A model generated the notes under the pieces. That model was not told the DNA's origin. It made no database searches and saw only the letters and a program-made list of their open reading frames with translations. Shown here in pieces: positions 2,009 to 16,141 of a stretch of DNA of 22,247 nt. Each line of letters opens with the position of its first letter. Position 1 is the first letter of the stretch. The stretch is from a virus. The stretch covers positions 1-22,247 of the IMG/VR virus record IMGVR_UViG_3300023210_000252. One strand, given 5' to 3'. Both the position numbers and the translations under genes were made by a program.

Positions 2009-2014
2009 ATATTT

Positions 2015-2518: not shown

Positions 2519-2537
2519 AATTACTTATATATTAGCA

Positions 2538-3713
2538 TCAATATAGCTTTTTTGTATAAACTGTAAGGTCAGCATCGTTTCCTCCCCCAGCCGATGTAAC
2601 GTACTTAACCCTCAAGTATTTAACTGGAAGAACTGTATCAAGAATTCCAATGAAGTCTGTATCTACAAAGCTAGCTGAACCAGTCAAAGCGTTAGTAACG
2701 TCTTGGTAGTCACAACTTGCTGCGGCAGTACCATCATCTTGAACAGAAGCCTCAAAGGTAACAGTCAATACATCGGTTGGTGCAGCTCCACTTGTCTCTC
2801 CCTGTATACCAACATACTTAACACCTGCCATATCTATATAAGCGTATGTAGTTGTGTTTGCAGTAATGTTTGTCTCATCTATTAGGGTCTCACTAACGTA
2901 CTGTTGGTTTAGAGGATTAACCTCTGCTGTTCTATCTGACTGTGTAGAACTATCATAAGCTTCACTTCTAGTCTCAAGTCTACGCTTAGCTGTCATTTTA
3001 AGTGCTCCTTTGTCTCCATCATCTACTTCATCATCAGTAGTATCATAGAATCCCATAACAACTTGCCCTTGGTCTGTTCCAGCTGTGAACGCAGAATCGT
3101 CTACATCAGCTCCTCCCACTGTTTGGTCAGATGGCAAAACAACTGGAATAGAAGCCGCCATAGCCTTTTGTCCCAATGTAACCGCTGTTCCCCCCACTTT
3201 AGCTACATTTACGTCTGAAGCGATTCCACCACCACCTGATCCTGATGTATTTGTCTCAACCTTATAAGCAGTAGAAGTTAAAGTGACTGAAGCATCAGCT
3301 TTTACACCGTAAATCGCTCCTGTTCTATAATCCACACAGTATTCACCATTGGCGAATCCTTCAGTAATTGCCGCTGCTTTAACCGTTCCTGTTAATCTAT
3401 CGTTACGCTCCGCTATGATGTTAGGGAACTTTACCTCAGTTGTAAGAGCCGTAGAAGTAAAAGATAGAGAAGTATCATTATAAGTTCCTGTAACGTCTCC
3501 TAGGGCGTTCTTTACATTCCTATAAGCTAGTTTACCTACTACTACAACTCCAGCAGCTTGTCCTGCATCAATTGTATAAACTCCTGAATTATAGAAATAT
3601 AGTTGAACAGTTTCGCCTGTTACGGGTGTAATGGCATCTGTTCCTACGTTATCAACTGGAAGCCTTCTCTGCTCACTGACCTCTAGTTGTTGTCCTGTGT
3701 TAAGTAATGTCAT
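2538..3713 (-). CDS. Phage structural protein with 'GQK..ASIPVVLPSDQ' motif
   Basis: A 391-residue protein. The N-terminal ~150 residues are a Thr/Val/Gly-rich beta region. A glycine linker (GSGGGGIASDV) follows, then NVAKVGGTAVTLGQKAMAAS plus IPVVLPSDQT. That phrase is common in phage tail, baseplate and other virion proteins. The C-terminal half contains VKYVGIQGETSG, PVKYLRVKYV and other beta-strand segments that look like a receptor or lectin-like sandwich. There is no catalytic motif. It lies downstream of the 302-residue fibre-like protein and upstream of the inserted Endo VII gene. A virion component is well supported. The exact part (head fibre, neck or tail) is not. Confidence 0.7.
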   Translation of the reverse strand: MTLLNTGQQLEVSEQRRLPVDNVGTDAITPVTGETVQLYFYNSGVYTIDAGQAAGVVVVGKLAYRNVKNALGDVTGTYNDTSLSFTSTALTTEVKFPNIIAERNDRLTGTVKAAAITEGFANGEYCVDYRTGAIYGVKADASVTLTSTAYKVETNTSGSGGGGIASDVNVAKVGGTAVTLGQKAMAASIPVVLPSDQTVGGADVDDSAFTAGTDQGQVVMGFYDTTDDEVDDGDKGALKMTAKRRLETRSEAYDSSTQSDRTAEVNPLNQQYVSETLIDETNITANTTTYAYIDMAGVKYVGIQGETSGAAPTDVLTVTFEASVQDDGTAAASCDYQDVTNALTGSASFVDTDFIGILDTVLPVKYLRVKYVTSAGGGNDADLTVYTKKLY

Positions 3714-3750
3714 ATTGTTTTTAATTAAATGATTTCTATAATCTCTTTAT

Positions 3751-3783
3751 GAGGAGAGCGATTTTTATCACCCCCTCTCTCCC
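3751..3783. other. Intergenic hairpin between two structural genes
   Basis: In the 81-nt gap between the structural genes, GGAGAG (3753-3758) can pair with CTCTCC (3777-3782) across an 18-nt loop. A run of eight T residues on the minus strand lies before the stem, not after it. This is therefore not a standard intrinsic terminator for leftward transcription. It may protect mRNA ends or be chance pairing. Confidence 0.35.
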
Positions 3784-3794
3784 TAAAAAAAAGA

Positions 3795-4703
3795 TTAAGC
3801 TATTGTTCCTCCGTTGTTAGCGCAAACTACCCAACCATCAGCTGCTTCATCCCAAATCATTTCACAACCTTTTCCCAAAGGATTAGCTGCGAATGTAATC
3901 TGAGTTCCACCAATCATCTTAGCTGGAGTAATCTTTACTGAATCAGCTGCATTGCCTACGACTGAAACGATAAACTTTTTAATTTGTCCATCTTCATCAC
4001 CGTCTGCAAGAGTAACTGCATCTTCATCTGTATCTCCGTTGGTAGTAATTTTAGAAACTATTGTAGCAATAGAAGCCGCAACTCCTTCTGAGGTTGCTGC
4101 TAATACTTCTGTAGAAAGATAAAGAATCTTCGCTAGACCTACTCCGTTACTTTCAATAGAGCAAACTTCTTCCAAAGCTCCGCTACCGTTCATTACGTTA
4201 TAGACCAATGCTCCTTCTTCACTACCATCAGTAGGGTCTGCAATAAATCCTTGTATTACTGCATACTGAGTTTCGTTACCACCATCATCATTACCTACGA
4301 ATACAATGTTCCCTAGGTTATCATCCGCTGCTGGAGAAGCTGAATCAAGATTCATTACTATCCCTCCTCCAGATGCACCGTCGTCTTCTACGTAAACCTC
4401 AAGACCAGACTGAGGACCTGCATTTACATGGACACCTTCGCTCCCTTTAGGAGTAAGGTTAATACCAATATTAGTGTCGTCACCTATTGCTGTAATAGCT
4501 GGACTATCCCCTATAGCTGCATTCCCAATATCAATATTGTTTATAGCTGCTGTCGTTACCGTAAAGTCTAGTAATTCATTGCCATTACTGTCTGTAATAC
4601 CACCACTGGCATCAAATTCAATATCAGCAACTACCTCACCATTTTCATTAACGATTTCCTCACCTGCCACATAAAGTGGTCCTGAAAAATGTGTATCTCC
4701 CAT
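3795..4703 (-). CDS. Head-fibre/decoration-like structural protein
   Basis: A 302-residue acidic, Gly/Asp/Ala-rich protein. The N-terminal MGDTHFSGPLYVAGEEI and the stretch INLTPKGSEGVHVNAG resemble proteins encoded just downstream of phage capsid genes, where short beta repeats describe fibre or decoration modules. The C-terminus (ITPAKMIGGTQITFAANPLG, then MIWDEAADGWVVCANNGGT) matches the closing beta-sandwich seen in many such proteins, with a terminal 'W-V-V...NNG' strand. There is no membrane segment or enzyme motif. It follows the major capsid gene after a ~100-nt structured spacer. That position and the repeat-like sequence suggest a capsid fibre or minor head protein, at moderate certainty. 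Confidence 0.65.
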   Translation of the reverse strand: MGDTHFSGPLYVAGEEIVNENGEVVADIEFDASGGITDSNGNELLDFTVTTAAINNIDIGNAAIGDSPAITAIGDDTNIGINLTPKGSEGVHVNAGPQSGLEVYVEDDGASGGGIVMNLDSASPAADDNLGNIVFVGNDDGGNETQYAVIQGFIADPTDGSEEGALVYNVMNGSGALEEVCSIESNGVGLAKILYLSTEVLAATSEGVAASIATIVSKITTNGDTDEDAVTLADGDEDGQIKKFIVSVVGNAADSVKITPAKMIGGTQITFAANPLGKGCEMIWDEAADGWVVCANNGGTIA

Positions 4704-4712
4704 GTTTTAAAT

Positions 4713-4813
4713 TGTTAAGGGATATAAAGATGGAGCTGTTTATATCAGCCGTAGCTTTCCTCTCTAGCCCTCACTAGAGGTCAAGCAGCCCCACCAGAGG
4801 TCTTTATAGACCT
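4713..4813 (-). promoter_or_regulatory. Structured 3' UTR of the capsid gene
   Basis: The region after the capsid stop codon folds in several short perfect stems when read on the minus strand. AGGTCT-ATAA-AGACCT (4798-4813) puts the stop codon in its loop. CTCTAG-TGAGGG-CTAGAG spans about 4762-4779. AGC-TACG-GCT is capped by the very stable cUACGg tetraloop. GCTG...CAGC closes the left end. Two related phrases, GACCTCTGGTGGGG and GACCTCTAGTGAGGG, lie in tandem. There is no T-run, so this is not a simple terminator. I recall a published metagenomic RNA motif downstream of Mu gpT-like genes (Mu-gpT-DE); whether this is a member cannot be decided by eye. Possible roles are mRNA stabilisation or raising capsid yield relative to downstream genes. 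Confidence 0.5.
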
Positions 4814-5700
4814 GTAGATCCTACAGTTCCAAAGTAGTCAGTCGCTCCTTGTGTCTGAACGAATCTAACTTTCTCGTACATATTTCCTGTGTCTTCGTCG
4901 ATGTACATTCTCATGCTTGGTTGTGCTTTCTGGTAAGCAGTAAGAGTGTGGAACATCTTCTCTGAACACATGAAGTATGCAGATGTTGAACTATCATCAA
5001 GTAGTGGCCATTCAATAATCTTGATGTTCAAGCTATTGATGAAGTTCTTTGAACGATCAGCTGTTGTTGGATCGTCTGGAGAACTGATTAGTTCCCAAGC
5101 AGTCATCTTAAGTGCAGTTGGCACTACTAGATAAGCTGTTTGTAAAGGCATCTTTAGTCCATCATGTGCCTTCATTTGCTTAAGAGCGATATACATCTCG
5201 TTAAGCTTGTCTTTTGTCATCGCACCTGTAATCAGGTTTGATTGTGTTACTCCTGTATCTGATACTTCGTGAGAAGCAGAGAATAGATACTCACCGTCCC
5301 AAGTTGTTGTTGTAGCGAACCCTCCTGAAAGAGTTTGTTCCATCAACAGATCTTGTTTGTATCTAGCTCTGTATCCAGCCATCCTCATTTCTTTCATTGT
5401 AGAACCGTAGTTTGAGAAATCCATCATTAGTTCTGTGATTCCAAACTTCTTCTTGTATTCAAGAGATGTGAATGTTTGTGTTCCAAGTTCACGGATCTGA
5501 GCTTCTGGATAATCAGCTCCTTCTGCAACTTGTGGAATGTCTCCATCAGTCGTTACTACAGACTCTTTCTCATTGAGACGATCTGGAGTGTCGATGTTGA
5601 AGATCATTTGACCATGTGGGGTATATGACTCGTATCCAGAAAGAAACTCTTTCTTTACGAGCAAGTCAACCTCACTTGGTTTAAGACTTGTAAAACTCAT
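4804..5700 (-). CDS. Major capsid protein, Mu gpT-like (HK97 fold)
   Basis: A 298-residue protein with the layout of Mu F/gpT-type major head subunits. It has a short N-terminal arm without a delta domain. A central part contains TFTSLEYKKKFGITELMMDF, DLLMEQTLSGGF and the hallmark segment DGEYLFSASHEVSDTG followed by 'SNLITGAMTKDKLNEMYIAL'. The C-terminal P-domain-like part contains LVVPTALKMTAWELISS and YFMCSEKMFHTLTAYQKAQP. Length fits the family (about 300 residues). It is encoded after the scaffold and a putative decoration protein, the normal head-gene order. It would form the icosahedral shell. The gene starts at ATG 5700 in the context TTTACAAGTCTT within the first codons, with an AT-rich leader and no Shine-Dalgarno sequence. 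It is followed by an unusual folded 3' UTR. Confidence 0.88.
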   Translation of the reverse strand: MSFTSLKPSEVDLLVKKEFLSGYESYTPHGQMIFNIDTPDRLNEKESVVTTDGDIPQVAEGADYPEAQIRELGTQTFTSLEYKKKFGITELMMDFSNYGSTMKEMRMAGYRARYKQDLLMEQTLSGGFATTTTWDGEYLFSASHEVSDTGVTQSNLITGAMTKDKLNEMYIALKQMKAHDGLKMPLQTAYLVVPTALKMTAWELISSPDDPTTADRSKNFINSLNIKIIEWPLLDDSSTSAYFMCSEKMFHTLTAYQKAQPSMRMYIDEDTGNMYEKVRFVQTQGATDYFGTVGSTGL

Positions 5701-5720
5701 AGTCTATAATCGTTAATAAA

Positions 5721-6188
5721 TTAGTTAGTTGGATTTGCGATAACTTCCATTACACCTGATGTAGTTTCGAAGTTGCCTGCACCACCCTGAGGACGTTTAA
5801 TCCTTAGGAATCCGTTTGCAGTGTCATTTTCATCTACAGTAATTACTCCTGTATTTACATCTACTGTAACTAGAGTATCAATTACTGCTTGTACTAGGTT
5901 GGCTGGAGTTGTCGCAGTCCCTTCTAGTATCATGTTTGGAGCGTATTGAAGTTTTACCGTTCCATCTACACCAGCTGTTTCATCTGAAGCACTTAGTGCG
6001 ATGTAAACACGATAAGCAGCAGCTATAACTTCTGCATTAGCAATCAATCGTACATACCCTGGATTAACATCATCAGGGATTACTAGATCACCAATAGCAA
6101 TAGAAGCAGCTGTTCCTGCTACAACATCTTTTACTACTCCTACAGCATCTTCTCCATTGAGAGTGCCTCGGAATCTAAAATCTGCCAT
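5721..6188 (-). CDS. Putative capsid decoration/head protein
   Basis: A 155-residue beta-rich protein. It starts MADFRFRGTLNGEDAVGVVK and contains the Ala/Val-rich run GTAASIAIGDLVIPDD and a second repeat-like phrase at 65-110 (VYIALSASDETAGVDGTVKL). It ends in ANGFLRIKRPQGGAGNFETT. Small proteins with this 'GDLV...G.V.LA....AGVDGTV' style between scaffold and capsid genes are typically head decoration or stabilisation proteins (DUF2190-like in behaviour). Family assignment is by position and composition, not by a firm motif. It is spaced 20 nt from both neighbours and shares their transcript. Confidence 0.6.
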   Translation of the reverse strand: MADFRFRGTLNGEDAVGVVKDVVAGTAASIAIGDLVIPDDVNPGYVRLIANAEVIAAAYRVYIALSASDETAGVDGTVKLQYAPNMILEGTATTPANLVQAVIDTLVTVDVNTGVITVDENDTANGFLRIKRPQGGAGNFETTSGVMEVIANPTN

Positions 6189-6208
6189 GTTTTACTTTGG
6201 TTAAAGAA

Positions 6209-7039
6209 TTATTCTGGCTTCACGTCTTTTAAAGGTGGAAGTGATAATACACTTACTCCTTTATTATCGACGCTTGAACGCTCTTGGATCGTTGCGATCT
6301 CTCGAGCGAATTCCTTCAACTCTATACCTCTGGACTTTGCAAACTCTGCTAAACCAGCTGATACCTTGACTATCTTGGAATCTACTGGGGCTGGTGCTTC
6401 TCCTCCTCCAGCTGTATTATGCGAGATTGGTTTAGCTGATACCTTTTCATCGTTGACGACTCTTGCTGCTGATCTTGCAGCTGCGTCTTCATCAGCTTCT
6501 ACTCCAGATAGGACATCGAAAGTCTTTTTAAACTTCTCCGTCTCATCTGCATTAAACCCAAACTCTACAGCTTTCTGGTCGAGATACTTATCTCGGTTAG
6601 TTACAATCTGTTTTTCAATCAGTTCTGCTCGAGCTTTAATACGCTCTTCTTCCCTGATCTTTTCCAAATCAAGTCCTTCTGTCTTCGTTACTGGCTTATC
6701 AGACATGATTTGATCGTACTGCGTTCCGAACTTGCTTTTTACATACTTCTCCATTGAAGGATCAGATTGTATTTTAGCTTTGATCTTGTCTCTAGCTACT
6801 TCACTTTCCATTGCTAGATCCATTAGATCCTCGTATGCAGCTTTCTTGTCATTACCAAGTTTCTCAATTACGGCTCCAACATTACCACCCTTACCTTCCT
6901 CGGCTTTTGCCTCTGGTGTAGGCGCATCGTTTTTAATAGCGGTGTCTTCCGCTCCACCTGTTTGCTCAGTTTGCACTGGCTCGACGGTGTCCTTCGTTAC
7001 CTCGACCTGAATGTCGTCGGTTGAAGATGTTTCATCCAT
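6209..7039 (-). CDS. Capsid scaffolding-like protein
   Basis: A 276-residue highly charged protein. An acidic Thr/Glu/Pro-rich disordered N-terminus (residues 1-55) is followed by long amphipathic helices rich in Lys and Glu. These include ESEVARDKIKAKIQSDPSM, LEKIREEERIKARAELIEKQ and a coiled coil to about residue 190. The C-terminus has a further helical segment (AGLAEFAKSRGIELKEFARE) and a short tail. This architecture, together with its position directly between the portal and the capsid genes, is typical of phage scaffolding proteins, which guide procapsid assembly and leave before DNA filling. No protease motif (Ser/His triad) is visible, so it is a plain scaffold rather than a protease-scaffold fusion. 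Confidence 0.72.
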   Translation of the reverse strand: MDETSSTDDIQVEVTKDTVEPVQTEQTGGAEDTAIKNDAPTPEAKAEEGKGGNVGAVIEKLGNDKKAAYEDLMDLAMESEVARDKIKAKIQSDPSMEKYVKSKFGTQYDQIMSDKPVTKTEGLDLEKIREEERIKARAELIEKQIVTNRDKYLDQKAVEFGFNADETEKFKKTFDVLSGVEADEDAAARSAARVVNDEKVSAKPISHNTAGGGEAPAPVDSKIVKVSAGLAEFAKSRGIELKEFAREIATIQERSSVDNKGVSVLSLPPLKDVKPE

Positions 7040-7066
7040 TGTATAGATGTTAAAAAATATATGAAC

Positions 7067-7117
7067 CTATGTGGCTCAGGGCAATCCATTAGCGTGAACT
7101 GCACCTAAGCTACATAG
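7067..7117 (-). promoter_or_regulatory. Hairpin in the portal-scaffold spacer
   Basis: Positions 7067-7072 (CTATGT) pair with 7112-7117 (ACATAG), 7074-7076 with 7108-7110, and 7078-7080 with 7104-7106. The helix is interrupted by two single mismatches. The loop is about 23 nt. On the minus strand the stem opens right at the TAG stop of the small ORF ending at 7110. There is no T-run. It may be a processing or stability element between portal and scaffold mRNAs. Confidence 0.45.
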
Positions 7118-7466
7118 TTTGTGATATTCGACGACGTTTGTATTCCGCCATCTCTTCCTTGATTTTAAAGGTCCTCTTTCTTTCGTTAGCTCTTGCAGTG
7201 ATTACTGACTTTAAATCAGATATGAATCTCTGACAGAGCTTTTTCTCAGCCAACAGGGTTAGGTTGCTCTCCTGGCCTAGCAGTTTGCGGTATATTTTGT
7301 GGAGCCAATGTGTCTCCAGTGATTTGATTAGCTTCTGGTTTATCTCCTCCAAACGAGTTACCCACCATACCTCCAGTGCTCGGATTGCTTCGTCTGGTAG
7401 ATACTTCTTGAGTCGTGCCCATTCCTTCCTCTCCATCGGTGGTTTGTGCAGTTTTTCTGTCAACAT
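7110..7466 (-). CDS. Small basic helical protein overlapping the portal 3' end
   Basis: A 118-residue ORF in the +1 frame relative to the portal. It overlaps the last ~220 nt of the portal gene and extends 136 nt beyond its stop. The sequence is strongly helical and basic: PPMERKEWARLKKYLPDEAI, EINQKLIKSLETHWLHKIY, ANERKRTFKIKEEMAEYKRR. It looks protein-like throughout, and it fills what would otherwise be an unexplained gap before the scaffold gene. The start is uncertain. ATG 7466 is preceded by AAAAGG. Alternatively a TTG near 7255 that overlaps the portal stop could be used, giving a protein of about 48 residues. No family was recognised. A head-assembly accessory role is inferred from its place only. 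Confidence 0.5.
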   Translation of the reverse strand: MLTEKLHKPPMERKEWARLKKYLPDEAIRALEVWWVTRLEEINQKLIKSLETHWLHKIYRKLLGQESNLTLLAEKKLCQRFISDLKSVITARANERKRTFKIKEEMAEYKRRRISQTM

Positions 7467-9387
7467 AGACCTTTTGGTTAATTATATTTTTAACTGTCAT
7501 CTCTAAATGCTTATTAAGAGCTTCTTTAGCTTGTTTACCTAGATCCTTGAATACTTTAGATCCCATAAACAATACGTGCTCTCCGTAATGGGATTCACTA
7601 TCTTCACCCTGCTTAATAGTTGGAACGATACCTGCTGCAACTAAGTCATGCTCTGCATCGATCTCATCAAGTTCTACTCCAGTCTTCTCTATTACTGGGA
7701 AGATATCCTGTAACTCATCACCTAATCCAAGGTTCTTAGCCATATATTTCATTAGTTCTGAGAAGTCCATTGTTCCGAATATCTCTTGTATCAAACTAGG
7801 ATTAGTCTGAGCTAAGTTACTTAGGGTGCTCATAGTTGTCTGTAGGAGCATCATTAGCTTCTCAGTCTGATCTCTCTTCAATTCTTCATCTTTCTGAGCT
7901 GAGATGATCTCTATTTCATCTATATCGAATGTATTTGTAATCTTTTTATTAAGATTGAATTTATCAATCGCTCCTTGCTGTTTTACGAACTTAACTCCTG
8001 AATCAGGTTTATTCTGCACAGCTTTGTATCCTTTCACCTTAACAAGTGGGTAAACGATCTTCTTATCTTCTCTAATAGGTTCTGATAGCTCATTCTTTAT
8101 GTAAGATAATGTCTGTCTAGTCATATAGAATTCAGCATCGTAGATATTCTGCTTAGTAGAAGCGTCAATACTCTTATTAAGTGTCTGCATTTTAGCCAAT
8201 GTTTGAGTAGCTAATTGATTAGGATTTGAATAAAGAGCTGTTGTATCGTCTGAAGTAACAGCTATTCTTGAGTTCTCAACCATCTGAATCATTGACATTA
8301 CTCCTTGTGTAATACCTCCTCCTGGTCTTAATGGCATAATATGATCCTGTAGTTTACCGTTTACTGGTCCTCTTACATCAAATATAGCTCCAGATTGTAG
8401 TTCATGCTCTTCAGGATTGAAGTTAATATCCCCATCTACTACTAATGCTGGCTGAACTTGTAGCATTGCGTCATCTATTGCTAGGTTCATTATCTTCTCT
8501 CTAAACAGATTATATGGAAGATTAAGCTCTATCTCACCCATTCCGTTGATAGTGTCTCCTCTTTGGATATTCCTGTACTGATGAAATGGAAACTCTTTAT
8601 GTGATAGCTCAATACCATCTGGTGAGTTGTAGATTTCAATTCCTCCAGAGGCGTTGATTGAGTATATATCGTTTTCAACATCATAGTATTCTAATACGGT
8701 TACGAATTCTTTCTGTGAAGTAAGCTCTTCTGTTTCATGCTTCTTCTTGAACTTATCGTCATACCAAACATTAGTATCTCCCCATGTAGTAGGACTTACT
8801 TGATCTACGTTCTTATACTTAGGATCACTGTATATTCGTCTAAATGTATCTATTTGGAAGATTTTCTTTCTAAATACCCACGGACATTGATTCAATCCAG
8901 TATGATCGTGTAAGTTCTGGAACCCTGGAGCTGGAAACAAATGTCTCCAATCTACATGCTCAGAAGCTACTCCTCTATATTTTGTGTACCATTTATCTTT
9001 CTTCCTATCGTATTGAGTGTATCTATTAGGAACTACACATATTGCTGAATTACCATATCCAGCTGTATGCCATAGAGCTTGCATTCGTGTACGAGTCATA
9101 TTTGCTACACGTTGAAAATGATCCAGTGTAGACTGCATCGTTAATCCTTCATCTCCGTTCATTGTTGCTCTAGCTTCTGGAATAACACTAAGGAAGTTGT
9201 TATATCTACGCAAAAGATACCCCATTGTTTCAGGGAATCTGTATGCTGCGTGTCCTTCTTCACCTCTTTCAAGGTGTCGTTCAAATTCATAAAGCCACCA
9301 AGAAGCCTTCTCTATACGAGATAGCTCATCTTGTTTAGCTTCCCAGGCAAATTGCCACCTTTTCTGTATTTCATTATTATCTATCAT
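7246..9387 (-). CDS. Portal protein (P22-like, long)
   Basis: A 713-residue portal, the length class of podovirus P22-type portals. The N-terminus is helical (KRWQFAWEAKQDELSRIEKA). A core region contains QALWHTAGYGNSAICVVPNR, EHVDWRHLFPAPGF and VTVLEYYDVENDIYSI. The segment RNIQRGDTINGMGEIELNLP with downstream REKIMNLAIDDAMLQVQPAL is typical of portals that contact terminase and crown. A long helical stem and C-terminal barrel-like part (ELKRDQTEKLMMLLQTTMST) follow. The last ~70 residues are Gly/Pro/Thr-rich and probably disordered. A dodecameric ring of this protein forms the packaging vertex. It lies between the terminase module and the scaffold. A hairpin sits directly before the ATG. 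Confidence 0.85.
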   Translation of the reverse strand: MIDNNEIQKRWQFAWEAKQDELSRIEKASWWLYEFERHLERGEEGHAAYRFPETMGYLLRRYNNFLSVIPEARATMNGDEGLTMQSTLDHFQRVANMTRTRMQALWHTAGYGNSAICVVPNRYTQYDRKKDKWYTKYRGVASEHVDWRHLFPAPGFQNLHDHTGLNQCPWVFRKKIFQIDTFRRIYSDPKYKNVDQVSPTTWGDTNVWYDDKFKKKHETEELTSQKEFVTVLEYYDVENDIYSINASGGIEIYNSPDGIELSHKEFPFHQYRNIQRGDTINGMGEIELNLPYNLFREKIMNLAIDDAMLQVQPALVVDGDINFNPEEHELQSGAIFDVRGPVNGKLQDHIMPLRPGGGITQGVMSMIQMVENSRIAVTSDDTTALYSNPNQLATQTLAKMQTLNKSIDASTKQNIYDAEFYMTRQTLSYIKNELSEPIREDKKIVYPLVKVKGYKAVQNKPDSGVKFVKQQGAIDKFNLNKKITNTFDIDEIEIISAQKDEELKRDQTEKLMMLLQTTMSTLSNLAQTNPSLIQEIFGTMDFSELMKYMAKNLGLGDELQDIFPVIEKTGVELDEIDAEHDLVAAGIVPTIKQGEDSESHYGEHVLFMGSKVFKDLGKQAKEALNKHLEMTVKNIINQKVYVDRKTAQTTDGEEGMGTTQEVSTRRSNPSTGGMVGNSFGGDKPEANQITGDTLAPQNIPQTARPGEQPNPVG

Positions 9388-9388
9388 A

Positions 9389-9422
9389 GGGAAATCACGG
9401 TTACTCTCCGTGGGTTTTTCCC
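9389..9422 (-). promoter_or_regulatory. Hairpin directly upstream of portal start codon
   Basis: On the minus strand GGGAAA-aacc-CACGG-agagtaa-CCGTG-a-TTTCCC forms two stacked stems (6 and 5 bp) with a small internal loop. The 3' strand ends one base before the portal ATG (9387). The structure covers the place where a ribosome would bind. A translational control element, or a 3' end stem for the terminase messages, is plausible. No T-run follows it. Confidence 0.5.
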
Positions 9423-9480
9423 TTTTCGAGATAATTACTACCTTTATTTTAACTTATTTTACCATTTAAGTAAACATAAG

Positions 9481-9618
9481 TTACAGCTTAATCCTCTCAG
9501 TTATACGTTCTATGAATACTGGCTCTCCATTCTGAATAACAATAGTTATCGTACAGTATGGATTATCTTCCATGTACTCTACTAACTTCTGTATCTTTAA
9601 GTTTACTGGTTTTAGCAT
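9481..9618 (-). CDS. DUF2292-like mini-protein
   Basis: A 45-residue ORF, too short for most gene finders: MLKPVNLKIQKLVEYMEDN, then PYCTITIVIQNGEPVFIERI and TERIKL. Its ATG lies in the terminase stop context AAATGCTAA, giving a 7-nt overlap that points to coupled translation. The pattern 'L...YG.I.I.I..G.PV.IE...(K/R)I.L' matches the small DUF2292 family, found in bacteria and phages and of unknown function. The whole length fits that family. It lies between the large terminase and the portal. The family assignment is from memory of the consensus and should be tested with a profile search. Confidence 0.6.
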   Translation of the reverse strand: MLKPVNLKIQKLVEYMEDNPYCTITIVIQNGEPVFIERITERIKL

Positions 9619-11153
9619 TTAGGTGTACGTAGGTTTAAGGTTTTATTCCTGATAGATCTAACTGATCTCTGCTTTCCTCTTGGTCTGAAATAGTAATCTT
9701 CCATCAATAATCTATGTAAATCCTCTATTAAGTGATCATCCTTGTCTACTGGATTAGGATTAGGATCTTTCTTATCCTTGCTCTTCCCTTGGTATTCGTC
9801 CCATACATAGTGTAATAACTCTTTAATTAGTCCCTGACAATTAGAGAATATGTAAAACTCTGGTTCTACTACAAGTTTGCCCTCTTTTAATTCGTATTTA
9901 AGAGCTGAATCTGTCCTTCTAATACATTCATGCAACTTCTTACTACCTCGCTTAAATCGTAATCCATGCCCTTCTAATCGATCTGCATATGATTTTTCGT
10001 TCGTTCTCTTGTCATCGTTAAATGCTGATGGATCTATCAATCTATCTATTATTCTCATATGTCCATCCTCTTCTTTCTTCATAATCTTGGCTGCAACTTC
10101 CTTATCTGTCCCTGTAAACATCAATTCATCAATGATGTACTTACGTCCCTTTTCATCAATTGCCATCCAGAGGAGTGCATCAGGAACCCTAGAATGAGTA
10201 TCTAATGCCATTGCCACACAGAAATCGTTCTCATCTATATCAAATGGCTCTATTACATGAATCTTTGGTTCGAACTTCTTGTGAACTAATCCAAGTAAAT
10301 GTCCGAACTTTCCATTCACACGAGCTTCAAACTCTACTTCTGGATATTGGGAGATCATTCTATCGATATCTATTTCCTTAAGAATTCCCCTAGTTCCTTC
10401 TCTCTCTTCACAGTTCTCCCATACATCTGCTGTGACATAATCAATCGTCTTCCCGTCTCTTTTATCGTAAAGATCATCTTTAATCCACGCTGAATACTTC
10501 AATGGAGTAAATCCCCAATAGACTATCGCTCCTCTTCTACAACGAGCTATTGAGGCTAGATATATATCATTTGGAGCTGGCTCGTCAAAATAAAGGAATC
10601 CTAGATCTGTTGATTCAAACTCTTTAGCATTCTGTTCTGTTGTCATTAAATCAAATTCAAATCCTGTATCAGTCATCCACTTAGCTTCGAATTGCTTCCC
10701 TTCCTTCCTTGTATCGTAATGAATGTCGAATCTATTTGCTGGGAACCATAGCTTTAATTCTGGAACAATCTTCTCTTTAATCGTTGTGGGATCAGATATA
10801 ATTCTCCCTTTCTTCAAATAAGGGAAATCTTTATACAGAGGATAATCAAAAAAAGAATCAGGTGCTTCTCCCCATTCTTCTTTCCATCTACTTCTAGTAG
10901 TATCGTGATCTACTGGTCCGAAACAGATTGCTCTTGTTATCATTGCACAAGTTGCTGACTTCCCTACTCCATTAGCAGCACAAAACATATTGATGAAGGA
11001 TTCGTTATTCCCTACCATCTTAATGAATTCTTCTCCTTTGCTATTAGGAACAAAAGTTTCTGCTAGGTTCTCATTACTTCTTCTTTCCAGTTCCGCTTGT
11101 ATCTCCAATAACTCCTGTAATGAGTTCCGAGGCACGTTCTCTAAGTTCTTCAT
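9612..11153 (-). CDS. terL: Terminase large subunit (ATPase-nuclease)
   Basis: The DNA-packaging motor. Numbering from the longer possible start at 11195, the N-terminal ATPase has Walker A ANGVGKS (74-80) and Walker B LGFLYFDEP (D204, E205). A probable coupling segment follows (YWGFTPLKYSAW). The C-terminal RNase H-like nuclease has acidic residues in ALDTHSR (D332), LIDPSAFNDD (D388) and DKDDHLIED (D486/D487). I prefer the ATG at 11153 (MKNLENVPRNSLQELLEIQ). It is preceded by AAAGGAG at a 6-nt spacing, one of very few Shine-Dalgarno-like sites here, and it shortens the overlap with terS to 80 nt. The longer form would add 14 residues. Together with TerS and portal it cuts and translocates the genome. 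Confidence 0.92.
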   Translation of the reverse strand: MKNLENVPRNSLQELLEIQAELERRSNENLAETFVPNSKGEEFIKMVGNNESFINMFCAANGVGKSATCAMITRAICFGPVDHDTTRSRWKEEWGEAPDSFFDYPLYKDFPYLKKGRIISDPTTIKEKIVPELKLWFPANRFDIHYDTRKEGKQFEAKWMTDTGFEFDLMTTEQNAKEFESTDLGFLYFDEPAPNDIYLASIARCRRGAIVYWGFTPLKYSAWIKDDLYDKRDGKTIDYVTADVWENCEEREGTRGILKEIDIDRMISQYPEVEFEARVNGKFGHLLGLVHKKFEPKIHVIEPFDIDENDFCVAMALDTHSRVPDALLWMAIDEKGRKYIIDELMFTGTDKEVAAKIMKKEEDGHMRIIDRLIDPSAFNDDKRTNEKSYADRLEGHGLRFKRGSKKLHECIRRTDSALKYELKEGKLVVEPEFYIFSNCQGLIKELLHYVWDEYQGKSKDKKDPNPNPVDKDDHLIEDLHRLLMEDYYFRPRGKQRSVRSIRNKTLNLRTPKC

Positions 11154-11553
11154 CACTAGCTCCTTTAAACTTGTGTTCATGTTTTTCTGCAGCATGTCTT
11201 CCTTTTATTTTATTATATTCGTTTATTGCAGCTCTCTTTGGATTGTATTCTGCATTTTGTCTAATTATATGAGCTAATTCTAAATCTACTTCTTCGTCAT
11301 TTAAGTGATGTTTATCGAGTAATTCCCTTATTCTCTCGTTAATGTAAACCTTTGTTAGGTTGTCGTGAGCTATAACTCTAGCTGTTTGATTCCATCCTGG
11401 TTTATCTTGATCTACGTTATAAGCTGCTAATACTGCTTTTATTTTATCGAATGTTTCTACGTATACATTACAAAAGAGCTCTTCTTTATCAGTAAGAACA
11501 TGTCCACTCTTGGTTTTACTATTTAACGGTGTCTCTAGTGTTGATTTTGGCAT
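11074..11553 (-). CDS. terS: Terminase small subunit
   Basis: A 159-residue protein from ATG 11553 (MPKSTLETPLNSKTKSGHVL). The frame is open up to 11598, but that extension would run through the end of the preceding membrane-protein gene, so the internal ATG is chosen. It lies 5 nt after that gene's stop. The helix-turn-helix-type N-terminal half (TDKEELFCNVYVETFDKIKA, AAYNVDQ, GWNQTARVIAHDNLTKVYIN) is the usual 'crop/feed - new sites - multiply' pattern of small terminases. A helical oligomerisation part and a basic C-terminal tail (GDTSGTGKKK) follow. It recognises the packaging site and regulates TerL, which is encoded directly downstream and overlaps it. Confidence 0.8.
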   Translation of the reverse strand: MPKSTLETPLNSKTKSGHVLTDKEELFCNVYVETFDKIKAVLAAYNVDQDKPGWNQTARVIAHDNLTKVYINERIRELLDKHHLNDEEVDLELAHIIRQNAEYNPKRAAINEYNKIKGRHAAEKHEHKFKGASDEELRERASELITGVIGDTSGTGKKK

Positions 11554-11558
11554 ATTTT

Positions 11559-11705
11559 TTATTTTAAAGTATCGTACAACATTACTACTCCTAAACAAAA
11601 GAAGAACAATCCAACTATACTTTTATCATCTCCGTAAAATCCAGCTGCTCCTGCTATGAGGATTAGAATTGATATACAACCCTTTTCTTCTTTTTTAGTG
11701 ACCAT
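11559..11705 (-). CDS. 48-residue two-helix membrane protein
   Basis: A short ORF from ATG 11705 to TAA 11559-11561, ending 5 nt before the terS start. The protein begins MVTKKEEKGC. It then has a hydrophobic segment (ISILILIAGAAGFYG), a short charged turn (DDKS) and a second hydrophobic segment (IVGLFFFCLGVVMLY), ending DTLK. A helical hairpin in the membrane is predicted. No family was recognised. Position before terS is unusual for a holin. A holin-like or superinfection role is possible but not shown. Confidence 0.6.
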   Translation of the reverse strand: MVTKKEEKGCISILILIAGAAGFYGDDKSIVGLFFFCLGVVMLYDTLK

Positions 11706-11723
11706 TTACTTCTTGTTAAGTTT

Positions 11724-11993
11724 TTTAGACTCTCTCCCCCCAACGTGAGTTGGGGAGCCTCATTCCTATGAAAACCTGTTTTTAGACGGGCTTTCGAAGT
11801 TCTGACTCCAGTGTTCAAAGCTGGAGAGGGAAAGTCTAAATCTCAGAACCCTTGACTCGATTTCTTCACTATTCGACTACTGTTAGTGCTTTAGTTTATA
11901 GAGGTTAAGTCCTCGGGCTTGCACCTTGTTAATCGTATTGAAATTAAGACAAGAGCGCTAATTTCGTTTTTCCCCTTGATTTCTCAAGGGTTC
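11724..11993. ncRNA. Gene-free, densely structured region upstream of terS
   Basis: No credible ORF exists between 11706 and 11999, but perfect inverted repeats fill it. CCCCAAC-GTGA-GTTGGGG is at 11738-11755. GTTCTGACTCCAG (11799-11811) pairs with CTGGAG (11821-11826) and, after a 16-nt bulge, with TCAGAAC (11843-11849). CACTA/TAGTG is at 11867-11888 and GAGG/CCTC at 11901-11914. GAAATTA/TAATTTC is at 11940-11965. CCCTTGA-TTTC-TCAAGGG (11973-11990) has a GAAA tetraloop on the minus strand. Long-range complements also exist: GAACCCTTGA (11846-11855) with 11984-11993, and TTTAGACT (11724-11731) with 11833-11840. These overlap the local stems, so alternative folds are possible. Candidates are a large structured RNA (strand undecided) or the DNA packaging site, which commonly lies just upstream of terS. 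Confidence 0.6.
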
Positions 11994-11999
11994 CAAGAT

Positions 12000-12419
12000 C
12001 TATTCGTTGCTTATCTTGTTGATCATCTCTGATACTAGGGCTTTCAAATGCCCTTCCGTGAACACTCCTTTAATCTTTTCTAATTCGTTTATTACTGCTG
12101 CTTTCGATGTAATCCTAGCTAGATTGTCATCTGTTTTAGCATCTAGGATAACCCTTCGGTATCTAGCATCCATTACTGGACGATACAGCTTATCGCACAA
12201 TCCTTTAAATAAAAGCTGCCAGTCGTTAATACTAGTTTCTTCTTTAACTTCTTCTACTTCAGCCACCTCTTCAGGAGCTTCTCCTTCCCATGAAGCTAAA
12301 ACCTCAGGCTTTAATCCTGCTGCTAACATCTTCTCAATCAATGACGGTGCTTCCCATCCGTGGTAAGGCTTTTTACCTACAACTTCTTTGTATTTTTCTT
12401 GTAAGAACTTAATTTCCAT
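12000..12419 (-). CDS. Protein with HeH/LEM-like N-terminal motif
   Basis: A 139-residue protein from ATG 12419 (MEIKFLQEKYKEVVGKKPYH). The frame opens further upstream, but this ATG overlaps the previous stop by 11 nt and puts the motif at the N-terminus. 'KYKEVVGKKPYHGWEAPSLIEKM' resembles the short helix-extended-loop-helix (HeH/LEM-like) module found at the ends of many phage proteins and thought to bind DNA. An acidic linker follows (EGEAPEEVAEVEEVKEE). A helical C-terminal part contains LYRPVMDARYRRVILDAKTD. Function is unknown. It is the last gene before the structured gap that leads into the terminase genes. Confidence 0.6.
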   Translation of the reverse strand: MEIKFLQEKYKEVVGKKPYHGWEAPSLIEKMLAAGLKPEVLASWEGEAPEEVAEVEEVKEETSINDWQLLFKGLCDKLYRPVMDARYRRVILDAKTDDNLARITSKAAVINELEKIKGVFTEGHLKALVSEMINKISNE

Positions 12420-12660
12420 TTTTAGTATTGTTAAGTATTTTTTTATAAACATGTTCAGTAGCGCTGTCTCCTTCTTTGACGGCCTTTTCTAATCCTTCGT
12501 GGATAATTTTCTGCTCTTCATCTTTAGAAATCTTATCAAACTCTTTAACATCCGTAGTTCCTTGATCGTCTACGATATGCCTTGTGTTACTAGCGTTTGG
12601 TTTATCTCTACGAACCAATGGTGTTCTACCTGAGAATCCTTTTACAATTACGTGAACCAT
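12409..12660 (-). CDS. Small unknown protein
   Basis: An 83-residue protein, not recognised. It starts MVHVIVKGFSGRTPLVRRDK and is mostly polar. The central part is Asp/Thr-rich and the C-terminus helical (KDEEQKIIHEGLEKAVKEGD, then HVYKKILNNTKNGN). There is no membrane segment and no cysteine. It sits 3 nt after the upstream gene's stop and overlaps the next start by 11 nt, which supports translation within one operon. The Arg/Lys-rich N-terminus may contact nucleic acid, but that is speculation. Confidence 0.55.
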   Translation of the reverse strand: MVHVIVKGFSGRTPLVRRDKPNASNTRHIVDDQGTTDVKEFDKISKDEEQKIIHEGLEKAVKEGDSATEHVYKKILNNTKNGN

Positions 12661-12663
12661 AAA

Positions 12664-12945
12664 TTATTTATTTAAAGGAATTGGATCCATTTGTATATTC
12701 TCCGCTTCAAGTTTAAACAAAATAGCGTCGATTGCATCATCGTACGCAGTTTCTAGCTTTCTTAAATCGTCAACCGAATCAGAACTAGAAATACTGATCT
12801 TCTTATAATTCTTTGATGAGTCGAAAACAAATTTCATAAACTGAGGTTTAAGGTGGTAGGATTGCCCTTCAGAGTTCCTACCAGACTCCGTTGTCTCTCG
12901 GCATATTCCTATGAAAAACTTATTGTATGCAATCTTTACCTGCAT
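12664..12945 (-). CDS. Small unknown protein
   Basis: A 93-residue protein from ATG 12945 (MQVKIAYNKFFIGICRETTE). The frame allows a TTG start two codons earlier, but the ATG is more likely. The sequence has a beta-like N-terminal half ending LKPQFMKFVFDSSKNYKKIS and a helical C-terminal half (DSVDDLRKLETAYDDAIDAI, LFKLEAENIQMD). No known motif was seen. It lies 3 nt before the 83-residue gene and belongs to the same leftward cluster of small proteins between replication and packaging genes. Confidence 0.55.
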   Translation of the reverse strand: MQVKIAYNKFFIGICRETTESGRNSEGQSYHLKPQFMKFVFDSSKNYKKISISSSDSVDDLRKLETAYDDAIDAILFKLEAENIQMDPIPLNK

Positions 12946-12978
12946 ATACAATATACCAAAACAAGGCAGAGTTGTAAA

Positions 12979-13137
12979 CTATTTCTTTAAATACAAAACT
13001 CCAAGGATTCCGACAGGAGACATCATCCCCATCGTAAATAATCCCAAAACAAAATCTTGCGTTTCCAACATATCCCCCAAAAGGAACAGAAACATGTAGA
13101 CGGTCAGGATTATACAGTACCAAGCTAGTCCTTTCAT
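12979..13137 (-). CDS. 52-residue membrane protein
   Basis: ATG 13137 begins MKGLAWYCIILTVYMFLFLL, a clear membrane-spanning segment. A short turn (GDMLETQDF) follows, then a second hydrophobic segment (VLGLFTMGMMSPVGILGVLY) and LKK. I choose this ATG over one 15 codons upstream, which would overlap the upstream zinc-ribbon gene. A second overlapping frame at 12920-13123 is weaker in character. Two-helix phage membrane proteins of this size include holins, pinholins and superinfection-exclusion factors. Nothing here decides between them. Confidence 0.55.
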   Translation of the reverse strand: MKGLAWYCIILTVYMFLFLLGDMLETQDFVLGLFTMGMMSPVGILGVLYLKK

Positions 13138-13147
13138 GATAAAAGGG

Positions 13148-13369
13148 TTAGATAATAGATGTTTGTGGCTTAACAAGAACACTATCCCTTAACTCTTCCA
13201 TAAGGGCTTCGTCTTGTTTTAAAAACTTTTGAAATTTCTTACAATCACCGCACACTGATTTTATGTGGAACGTATATTTAGCATCTCCAGCCCATTGCCT
13301 TCTTGTTTCTTTGAAAGGAACAAATGTTTTTAATTCGTTACTCCCATCGCAATACTTACATTTAAACAT
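13148..13369 (-). CDS. Small zinc-ribbon protein
   Basis: A 73-residue protein with MFKCKYCDGSNE at the N-terminus and SVCGDCKKFQKF about 35 residues later, giving a C4-C7...C40-C43 type zinc ribbon. The intervening stretch is basic and aromatic (VPFKETRRQWAGDAKYTF). The C-terminal helix is acidic. Small zinc ribbons near phage replication genes often bind nucleic acid or RNA polymerase, but no specific family is recognised. It follows another zinc-ribbon gene (13380-13583) by 10 nt and may be part of a pair. Confidence 0.6.
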   Translation of the reverse strand: MFKCKYCDGSNELKTFVPFKETRRQWAGDAKYTFHIKSVCGDCKKFQKFLKQDEALMEELRDSVLVKPQTSII

Positions 13370-13379
13370 AGTTTTTTAG

Positions 13380-13583
13380 TTATTTATTTTCGATTATTGT
13401 GTTTAATTTCTTACTCCAATACTCCTTGCTCTTTCTACTTGCCATACTATTCAACACTAGGGCGTTCTTGAATGAAACAATTGTGCTGAATATCACCCTA
13501 CAAGAGAAACACGTCTTTTCTTCAAAATCATCGTGATACTCCTTTTCTTTAAAACCGTTCTTACAAAATTGGCATTTTTTCAT
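13380..13583 (-). CDS. Small zinc-ribbon protein
   Basis: A 67-residue protein. C4xxC7 (MKKCQFCKNGFKEKEY) and C25xxC28 (KTCFSCRVIF) form a compact zinc ribbon, followed by a helical basic tail (ASRKSKEYWSKKLNTIIENK). It lies 18 nt downstream of the primase-helicase gene in the same operon. It may assist replication or transcription. The evidence is limited to the cysteine pattern and position. Confidence 0.6.
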   Translation of the reverse strand: MKKCQFCKNGFKEKEYHDDFEEKTCFSCRVIFSTIVSFKNALVLNSMASRKSKEYWSKKLNTIIENK

Positions 13584-13601
13584 AACATTATTGTTAATAA
13601 A

Positions 13602-15422
13602 TTATTCATACATTCCATTTCTATAATTAAGACCTACTGTTTTCTCGTCTCCGAACCTATTCTTGTGGCAAACAAACAACGTCTTCCCATCACTAGGTGC
13701 TGCATCATCATCAAATTCAGACAATTCTGCTGTATCATTTCTTGGATACCAAAGCTGAAACAATAAACTCGTTAAGTTTCTAATGTCAGCACTTCCTGCA
13801 ATATCATTCACTGACCTTGGCTTGGTTGAGGCTCCAGCCTGTCCCTTGTTGAAGTGACTTAACAGTAGTAGCGGAACCTGGTGTTGTTTTGCTATTTGTG
13901 ATAGATCAGATAGAAGCTTGCTATATTCTTCCCATGTACTTTTGTTCTTATCTTTTCTGACATATCCAAGATGGTCAACAATTATAAGATCGAACGGTGA
14001 TCCACTTTCACTATCTGCCTTAACCACCTTCTTCAACTCACTTGTTCCAAGAGATATATTGTCCTTGAAAAACTTTAATAGATTCTTGCTTCTATCAAAG
14101 AAATTAAGTCCACCATCTAAGACGTCTTTATGATGTTTCAATTCAGCAAATGGTATTCCAGCCCACTCTGCTATAGTCCTTTCAACCAATGTCTCTGTAG
14201 ACATCTCAAGCGAACAAAACAGCACTCTATTTCCCTTGTCGATGTTCTTCTTGGCAACATACATTGCAAAAGCCGTCTTGCCCATCCCAGGATCAGCAGC
14301 ACAAATCATCATCTCCTCTTTCCTCCTCTTGCCCCATGCTTTATCAAACTCAGGATGCCCAAGTGTGATAGGTGATAATCCTTTCCCTGTTAAAATGTTG
14401 TCTTTAACATTTGCTACAAGCTCGTCTGAATCATAAAACATATCCTCAACGTCCATTCTCTGATAACCAAACTTACATCTGCTTTTATCGCAGAATTGTA
14501 GAACATAGTCATTGTTGTTACATCCAAACTTGTTGTTATGCTTAAACGCAGACTTCACTGTCCTGGCCACCTCTTTATCCTCAAGTCCTCCGAATCCATT
14601 TAATAATTCAACAGTATCTTCTTCTGATGCGTTCTGGCTTTTCATAAACAGCGCAACAGTATAACAAGCATTATTCCTTTCCCCCTTGCCTACCCCTTCA
14701 GTCAACATCCTCCTAATACATGGAAGTGTTTTTATATCATCAATACTTTTAGGCATATATTCATTCTTCTTTCTCTGTGCTTCATGGCTCGCTTTCTCTG
14801 TCTTGTCGAACCCCTCTCTAAACTTCTCATTAAAACTAAACTCTGGAGCCTTGGTGGTTCTAGGGTTCGATGCAAGTACTAGAATCGATTCTAAGGTGCC
14901 TCCTAGCTCCTCTCGAGTGATTCTAACCTTAAAATGACCCGAACTACCATGCTGGGTATTATTCAGTCGTAAGAGCCTCTTACGGTCGTATATTGCAAGA
15001 TCGAGAGTCTTAAGCCGTTTAAGGAACTTTAAATTCCTAGCTATCTGTTTAAATACAGTGATTGTGTCCACCTTTAAGCCTAGATCCAGCACTTCTTGTC
15101 CTGCTATTAAATGAAAACCCTTATTTCCACTGAAGAATATATCTAGTTTTATTCCGAACACCTCATCGAAGTAATCGTAAATATCGATAGACTCCTTTCT
15201 TGCTATATCGACATCATCTTCGCTATCCATGTCAAACACCAACGGTGCAATATAAGCCGACGAGTCCTGCTCTGGCTCCTCGTATGACATGTACGTTGCG
15301 TAGCACTCTTTGTGTTCATGCTTCTCACAAAACTCTTTGTGCATTTCTTTGGAATCCTCTCGCATTAGAGGGTTATCACCATCCATTTCTTGAAACTTTT
15401 TGTGTGCAAATCGGATATACAT
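13602..15422 (-). CDS. Primase-polymerase/DnaB-type helicase fusion
   Basis: A 606-residue bifunctional replication protein. The N-terminal archaeo-eukaryotic primase (AEP) domain shows FDMDS (D64, D66), SGNKGFHLI (S98-H104) and a third strand region, AIYDRKRLLRLNNTQHGSSG, the usual metal- and nucleotide-binding motifs. Cysteines at 235 (LPCIRRML), 301, 311 and 316, with GKGERNNA between them, resemble the primase C-terminal region with a possible iron-sulfur site. The C-terminal RecA-type helicase has Walker A ADPGMGKT (376-383), Walker B LIIVDH (D483), LLLSHFN (H523), an arginine near R548 and HKNRFGDEK, all like DnaB/Twinkle/T7 gp4. It would prime and unwind at the fork. It starts on the TAATG junction with the initiator gene. 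Confidence 0.88.
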   Translation of the reverse strand: MYIRFAHKKFQEMDGDNPLMREDSKEMHKEFCEKHEHKECYATYMSYEEPEQDSSAYIAPLVFDMDSEDDVDIARKESIDIYDYFDEVFGIKLDIFFSGNKGFHLIAGQEVLDLGLKVDTITVFKQIARNLKFLKRLKTLDLAIYDRKRLLRLNNTQHGSSGHFKVRITREELGGTLESILVLASNPRTTKAPEFSFNEKFREGFDKTEKASHEAQRKKNEYMPKSIDDIKTLPCIRRMLTEGVGKGERNNACYTVALFMKSQNASEEDTVELLNGFGGLEDKEVARTVKSAFKHNNKFGCNNNDYVLQFCDKSRCKFGYQRMDVEDMFYDSDELVANVKDNILTGKGLSPITLGHPEFDKAWGKRRKEEMMICAADPGMGKTAFAMYVAKKNIDKGNRVLFCSLEMSTETLVERTIAEWAGIPFAELKHHKDVLDGGLNFFDRSKNLLKFFKDNISLGTSELKKVVKADSESGSPFDLIIVDHLGYVRKDKNKSTWEEYSKLLSDLSQIAKQHQVPLLLLSHFNKGQAGASTKPRSVNDIAGSADIRNLTSLLFQLWYPRNDTAELSEFDDDAAPSDGKTLFVCHKNRFGDEKTVGLNYRNGMYE

Positions 15423-16141
15423 TATTTTTTGTTGTTAAATACTTTGTTCATCAAGTCGGAACCCGATAACTCACTGATTGGCTGTTCCTTTACTTCATCG
15501 AGCCAACACTTACCCCTAAGCCATGATGCAGGATAAGGGATGTATTTTCCCCCATCTTCTAGCCAGCTTGCGCTCTTCTTCTGTTTAGCTATCGCAGCCA
15601 ACAATACGTCAACATCCTCGGCCACACCCTTGAACGCTTTTTCAGCATCCCCTTTCTTCCTCTTCTTGGGATATGCTGAGTAGAATGTTTCGAAGTGTGC
15701 ACCGTATGTTTTCTTTTCCTTTATTTCCTTTCCTTTCCTTTCCTTTATAGCATTGCGTTCGCATTGCGTTCGCATTGCGTTCGCATACCCTTTGTTTTCC
15801 TTATTCCATCGCACCTTTGCGGACTTTCGAGCGGCCTCACTTTTCTTCTCTTTTTCTTTAAAAAATTTGACCAAACGATTACTCCAAAAAAACTTTTCAT
15901 CAATTTTAAACAATTCAAAATCAAAAATAATGGATTTTATGCGTTCGCAATCCAAACGCATTGCGAATGCAATATCTTCTATGTCTTCTATTTTTAAACG
16001 AGCCTCTGAAGAAGCAGCAACCAGCTCTACTAGGTGCCAGTAAATTCCGTATCCTTCATGCCCTTCCCTCCTTAAGAGCTTGATAATTTTTTCATCCTCA
16101 TGAGCATTATAATCATGAGGAAAATAATAAGATTCCTTCAT
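15422..16141 (-). CDS. DnaD/Lin1244-like replication initiator
   Basis: A 239-residue protein. The N-terminal domain (YYFPHDYNAHEDEKIIKLLR, GHEGYGIYWHLVELVA) is the Lin1244/Lin1753-like winged helix (DUF4373), related to DnaD-type initiators. Residues 90-145 are very basic and low in complexity, and this is the stretch whose DNA carries the iterons. The C-terminus (FETFYSAYPKKRKKGDAEKA, then GKYIPYPASWLRGKCWLDEV) is the tail common to phage and plasmid initiators, likely involved in helicase loading. It is followed with a 1-nt overlap by the primase-helicase. An origin inside the initiator gene, as in phage lambda O, would fit. DNA binding is inferred. Confidence 0.82.
   Translation of the reverse strand: MKESYYFPHDYNAHEDEKIIKLLRREGHEGYGIYWHLVELVAASSEARLKIEDIEDIAFAMRLDCERIKSIIFDFELFKIDEKFFWSNRLVKFFKEKEKKSEAARKSAKVRWNKENKGYANAMRTQCERNAIKERKGKEIKEKKTYGAHFETFYSAYPKKRKKGDAEKAFKGVAEDVDVLLAAIAKQKKSASWLEDGGKYIPYPASWLRGKCWLDEVKEQPISELSGSDLMNKVFNNKK
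15724..15743. repeat. Four tandem TTTCC pentamers beside iterons
   Basis: TTTCC is repeated four times without a break, with further near-copies to the left (from about 15713). On the coding strand it is purine-rich (GGAAA)n and encodes a Lys/Glu/Arg run. It lies 6 bp from the iteron array. Polypurine tracts next to iterons are often part of replication origins, but simple slippage in a low-complexity linker could also produce it. Confidence 0.6.
15750..15785. repeat. Iteron-like 11-bp tandem repeats (possible origin)
   Basis: Three perfect head-to-tail copies of an 11-bp unit (GCATTGCGTTC) cover 15750-15782, followed by a partial fourth. Each contains the inverted-repeat core TGCG-TT-CGCA, at 15754-15763, 15765-15774 and 15776-15785. 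The same 10-mer recurs at 15940-15949 beside two diverged copies (15955-15972, TTGCGAATGCAA). The unit is one helical turn, so bound proteins would sit on one face. The array lies in the coding sequence of the initiator, next to a polypurine tract and an A/T-rich stretch (15845-15935). Origin function is inferred. Confidence 0.65.

Follow-up and report, generated by a model that had tools for sequence, protein, structure and literature searches.

The window analysed here is a stretch of 22,247 nucleotides from a virus (IMG/VR record IMGVR_UViG_3300023210_000252). It contains a leftward operon in which the gene for a replication initiator comes first, followed by a primase-helicase gene (Table 1). 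The identity of the initiator gene, as given in the original prediction, is borne out by a match of its N-domain to Lin1244_N (PF14297, DUF4373), with an E value of 3.6e-12 and a score of 47.3 bits against a gathering cut-off of 25. The C-domain matches phrog_2562, phrog_270 and phrog_9327, which are common to other phage initiators, and the adjacent gene carries DnaB_C, the context of a replication initiator. In the AlphaFold model, residues 21-110 mostly score over 90 in pLDDT and linker residues 123-158 under 50, and the protein is predicted to consist of a confidently folded N-domain and a disordered linker ahead of the C-domain. A structural look-up with the N-domain finds winged-helix domains with Z scores up to 7, a weak likeness. 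The best winged-helix matches from Foldseek have E values above 0.1 and none is at or below 0.001, and a sequence search of solved structures with this domain gave nothing convincing. We propose the Lin1244_N domain as the candidate iteron-binding domain, and the C-domain as a putative helicase-recruiting module.

Table 1. Positions of the genes, domains and repeat features at the initiator locus
Feature	Position in window	Strand	Remarks
Primase-DnaB-type helicase gene	13602..15422	-	Directly downstream of initiator gene; DnaB_C E=2.6e-28; primase/helicase PHROGs
Initiator gene, 239 aa	15422..16141	-	Lin1244_N-type N-domain, disordered linker (predicted), O/DnaT-like C-terminal domain
C-terminal domain, residues about 150-225	15467..15694	-	Resembles C-domains of other phage initiators
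Polypurine tract (AAAGG)4AAATAAAGGAAAAGAAAA	15709..15746	-	Abuts array II; conserved in relatives
Array II (linker)	15754..15785	-	Three perfect 10-bp 4-2-4 palindromic iterons TGCG-AA-CGCA, 11-bp spacing
DNA between arrays, 154 bp	15786..15939	-	69% AT vs 60% for gene
Lin1244_N domain, residues 6-89, winged-helix-like	15875..16126	-	Pfam PF14297
Array I, within DNA-binding-domain code	15940..15971	-	One perfect core and two diverged cores, 11-bp register

The window has exactly four copies of the core sequence TGCGTTCGCA, at 15754-15763, 15765-15774, 15776-15785 and 15940-15949; on the coding strand the core reads TGCGAACGCA. The three perfect cores at 11-bp spacing and the fourth apart from them were thus located as predicted, all within the initiator gene. 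The expected number of TGCGNNCGCA in the window is 0.04, and no shuffle gave four cores. Synonymous-codon shuffles of the initiator gene (5000) contain 0.25 cores on average and three at most, as compared to the four observed. Autocorrelation of the gene is swamped at any period by the purine tract. The diverged copies that had been noted beside the fourth core are real and keep the 11-bp register exactly, with TGCATTCGCA at 15962-15971, TGCGTTTGGA at 15951-15960 and TGCGAACGCA at 15940-15949 on the minus strand. They are not stray copies, however, but belong to a second, conserved array (array I) that co-varies with the first (see below). The predicted AT-rich flank corresponds to the DNA between the two arrays, which is richer in AT than the gene, but the enrichment is not kept in relatives, and a conserved AT-rich region between the arrays was ruled out. 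Judging from the relatives, the conserved partner of the array is the polypurine tract and not the AT-rich stretch.

Relatives of the initiator were compared at the DNA level. One early search had used the linker peptide KGKEIKEK as its pattern, and the frequencies given here therefore rest on samples chosen by N-terminal sequence only. Forty dereplicated two-domain genes were used (that of the window plus 39 relatives identified solely by the motif [YF]YF[SP]HD[YAS]N), and an N-terminal scan confirmed more than 580 Lin1244 relatives among the matches listed. Counting sites with up to three mismatches against codon shuffles was uninformative, and exact cores and half-site ranking were adopted instead. 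The 40 initiator genes contain 90 copies of the exact core, and the 221 kb of DNA flanking them none. Thirty-three of the 40 genes have it in the linker (codon-shuffle mean 4.1, maximum 10, kinship ignored) and 35 in the N-domain region (mean 4.2, maximum 10, kinship likewise ignored). Nearly all two-domain relatives have an array at the same place, with the core confined to the gene, an outcome in favor of the original prediction. Over codons 113-128, residues shared among the 40 genes agree in codon in 76-84% of cases, where the background would give 46-47%, and same-codon use in the N- and C-domains is mostly near background. In the closest family even rare codons are fixed: Thr is ACG in 11/11 (1.6 expected), the first Ala is GCG in 8/10 (1.1 expected), and Arg is AGG in 5/5 (0.9 expected). 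By this constraint on codon choice, the stretch is conserved as DNA, beyond what the peptide requires. An island of roughly 77 bp, comprising array II and the tract, is often all, or nearly all, that blastn aligns between a relative and the window.

The predicted (TTTCC)4 tract was confirmed at 15724-15746, and the polypurine run continues beyond it to 15709. A 23-base piece of the tract was scanned in 2.9 million viral contigs (IMG/VR) and matched 43. In these contigs the tract lies in initiator-like ORFs, mostly right after the repeat-bearing linker where there is sufficient sequence. Most tract-bearing ORFs encode KGKEIKEK from it; in L013/L046 and the unrelated L069, the tract is read in another frame, as RKGNKRKE. 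Its retention in two frames suggests that it is the DNA that is maintained. Among 85k genomes the 23-mer has five matches, three of them in initiator linkers and the other two in a seryl-tRNA-synthetase-like coiled coil and a short ORF without an array. We propose the tract as a candidate unwinding or single-strand element. The AAAGG tract at 15724-15746 is also a perfect purine mirror repeat, and triplex DNA could form there under supercoiling.

The core is a 4-2-4 palindrome, and lineages differ in the half-site. The linker half-site is TGCA in L011, L038, L164 and the Crassaminicella plasmid pCT01, TACG in L018 and L070, AACA in L021, and TTTG in L069. Where a gene has a linker array, the linker half-site in most cases ranks first of all 256 in the gene's own N-domain, and in the genes just listed it is at or near the top of the 256 in this region. 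Permuting half-sites among genes never gave a mean as high as the observed one in 5000 trials (P<1/5000, kinship ignored), whether or not TGCG genes were included. The best 14-mer common to linker and N-domain lacked the sensitivity to serve as a test. The position of array I varies among the relatives (gene nucleotides 131-134, 148, 178, 186 and 192), with neighboring sites in the 11-bp register; in L162, for example, the sites are at 134, 145, 156 and 178. The site has apparently moved within the coding sequence and yet been retained. This movement, together with the several half-site types, argues for repeated selection. There are exceptions: a linker half-site is found without an N-domain partner in L039, L043, L084 and EF62phi, and the linker repeats are non-palindromic in L024, L030 and L041, which suggests a different mode of recognition. 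Such non-palindromic repeats, also seen in L096, are of 12 bp or longer (for example GGGGGGCTAATA) and occupy the same place in the linker; they precede a purine tract in the first three, and L096 has no tract.

These observations bear on whether the repeats and the K/E-rich stretch are kept for their amino acids, or arose by neutral tandem duplication. At the protein level there is conservation too, in the peptide ANAMRTQCERNAIKERKGKEIKEK, and slippage can yield tandem repeats. However, the codons are fixed beyond what the peptide requires, with rare codons in use, the tract is retained in two frames, and the half-sites co-vary across two separate arrays, one of them within a folded domain. 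We consider that this explanation has hardly any chance of being correct.

The same design appears in a second initiator family. DNA similarity to the array-tract island recovered Acinetobacter phage phiAC-1 and a Vibrio phage, and the initiator of the latter scores as DUF1376 (PF07120), a separate Pfam family of which the window protein is not a member. More than 580 DUF1376 relatives were confirmed by scan among the matches listed, and 53 dereplicated DUF1376-type representatives, found by their first 47 residues only, were analysed. A linker array is present in 42 of the 53, with TGCG half-sites in 27 and AACG in 14. The N-domains of the TGCG-linker genes contain TGCG in 25/27 and AACG in 0/27, and those of the AACG-linker genes contain AACG in 7/14 and TGCG in none. 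The tract that follows the array is AACCAATAACC- or ACACAAGACACA-like. By these matches, the DUF1376 initiators share the two-array design, and the layout appears to be common to hundreds of related phages.

RNA polymerase transcribing the initiator gene would run across the arrays, which sit 170-390 nt downstream of the start codon, and they could instead be an operator that acts mainly as a roadblock to transcription of the gene, with replication starting elsewhere. Initiators often autoregulate. On the other hand, the upstream divergent promoter region has no core, and an operator would leave unexplained both the conserved tract abutting array II and the likeness of the layout to the lambda origin. 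Moreover, the exact core is absent throughout the loci of sixteen short relatives (about 127 aa, lacking the C-domain), which serve as a natural control. We regard a mainly regulatory role as improbable. The origin of these single-domain Lin1244 lineages (L099-L104, L134, L136, L144 and others) must be elsewhere or use other repeats. In three loci that were read, the gene next after the short Lin1244 gene encodes a DnaG-like zinc-finger primase.

In the alignment columns after the tract, the C-terminal domains of related initiators are mostly dissimilar, as if swapped there. The linker DNA could thus be mainly a patch of homology for exchanging these domains, and it does stay alike while the C-domains diverge widely just past the tract. 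A recombination joint would not, however, account for array I, the 11-bp register, the palindromes or the half-site co-variation, and it may be a by-product of an origin situated between two modules. As the main function of this DNA, it is very unlikely.

We consider it highly probable, from comparison of the sequences, that the locus is a theta-type replication origin of the phage built into its initiator gene, with the iterons bound by the gene's own product. The comparative evidence thus supports the origin-within-gene reading of the original prediction. The initiator very probably binds both sets of repeats in its own gene to start replication. Binding of the iterons by the N-domain is strongly implied by the half-site co-variation: the Lin1244-type, winged-helix N-domain would recognize the 10-bp palindromes (TGCGAACGCA), spaced one helical turn from each other, within arrays I and II. 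Given the 11-bp spacing, it would probably bind as dimers on one face of the helix. The resulting nucleoprotein complex would melt, or hold open, the tract adjoining array II, and the C-domain would bring in the replicative helicase, probably the product of the adjacent primase-helicase gene. Melting of the tract and helicase loading are inferred from lambda and SPP1. Array I may provide added binding, looping or control.

A broader reading is that Lin1244 and DUF1376 initiators, in phages of several bacterial phyla, represent a widespread and so far undescribed class of bipartite origin in coding DNA, made up of specificity-matched arrays and a lineage-specific tract; to our mind this could go either way. 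One array would then sit in the code of the very DNA-binding domain that reads both, and the two would act jointly, for example through looping or paired nucleation. If so, the half-site could be read from sequence, leading to a recognition code between initiator and iteron.

Two properties of the window itself deserve mention. The cumulative GC skew reaches its lowest value at 16,099-16,116, inside the initiator gene, as an origin there would predict, but it coincides with the divergence of two operons and is for that reason not independent evidence. Third-position skew mostly tracks the coding strand on both sides, and GC skew was dropped as independent support. Furthermore, a contig (L047/L005) is 99.97% identical to window positions 1481-15753 and ends exactly at the array edge, at 15753, and the right half of the window was found in no other contig. 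The window may accordingly have been mis-joined at the widely shared island, which, being common to otherwise dissimilar phages, probably breaks assemblies at 15753. A mis-join, if real, leaves the comparative result unchanged. More generally, metagenome contigs may break or be wrongly joined at an island that is nearly identical in otherwise dissimilar phages.

The findings would provide a sequence rule for locating the origin, and the site bound by the initiator, in two large phage initiator families that are for the most part unannotated. They also make testable how a protein carries binding sites inside the code of its own DNA-binding domain, how the recognition helix evolves together with the half-site, and how phages swap helicase-recruiting modules around an origin.

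Origins within initiator genes are already established, in lambda O, SPP1 gene 38 and TP901-1/Tuc2009. The initiator here is marked by its Pfam domain as different from that of lambda, in line with the original prediction, but SPP1, TP901-1 and Tuc2009 are precedents for an in-gene origin outside the lambda family. What appears to be new is that these two families of initiator are involved, that there are two arrays matched to each other, and that one of them is placed inside the code of the DNA-binding domain itself. A search of mostly open-access literature found no papers on Lin1244, DUF4373 or DUF1376 origins and no report of two matched arrays; given that scope, this negative result is not proof of novelty.

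In RepA_N initiators (PLE RepA, pTZ2162), semi-palindromic direct repeats are bound by an N-terminal domain resembling DnaD (PMC7145576). The PLE origin is noncoding, unlike the in-gene arrays of the window. Comparison of the window N-domain with RepA_N found no match in sequence or fold, and RepA_N and DnaD are not among the matches listed in the fold search, which gave weak winged-helix matches. In SPP1, compared here by description, oriL lies inside gene 38, where the origin-binding protein binds direct repeats beside an AT-rich unwinding element (PMC6316719); unlike in the window, there is a second origin, oriR, elsewhere. The replisome organizers of TP901-1 (ORF13) and Tuc2009 (Rep2009) bind direct repeats in their own genes, and these repeats act as the origins (PMC8965321). 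In TP901-1 a TTTTCCAGATGTGG-type repeat lies between the two initiator domains, a position like that of array II in the window. However, the TP901-1/Tuc2009 initiator differs from that of the window (it is annotated as DnaD-like), the repeat spacing is 15 bp, and a repeat scan of these genes found no 11-bp palindromic array.

A close parallel in layout is lambda. In both systems the iterons lie in that part of the initiator gene which codes for the linker and are immediately followed by an A/G-rich tract on the same strand, with the N-domain before the array and the helicase-recruiting domain (putative in the window) after it. Two features of a lambda O-type intragenic origin, several direct repeats between the N- and C-domains and a strand-asymmetric tract 3' of the array, are present here, and the lambda tract GACACAAAAGACACTATTACAAAAGAAAAAAGAAAAG holds the same place and strand as that of the window. 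In lambdoid phages unwinding takes place at the AT-rich tract, whose single strand is bound by O (PMC7466680). Lambda has a single annotated array of 18-mer iterons spaced about 20-24 bp, as compared to the two arrays of 10-bp palindromes with 11-bp spacing in the window. In the window initiator, Pfam detects Lin1244_N, the mark of a different initiator, and no O-type N-domain, and the C-domain match phrog_270 is annotated 'replication initiation protein'. The lambda unwinding tract (L093, 619-660) resembles the ACACAAGACACA tracts in the DUF1376 linkers L179-L257, with a best local score of 20 against a maximum of 12 for shuffles (best of 53 genes), a likeness that suggests an element shared in phages of Proteobacteria.
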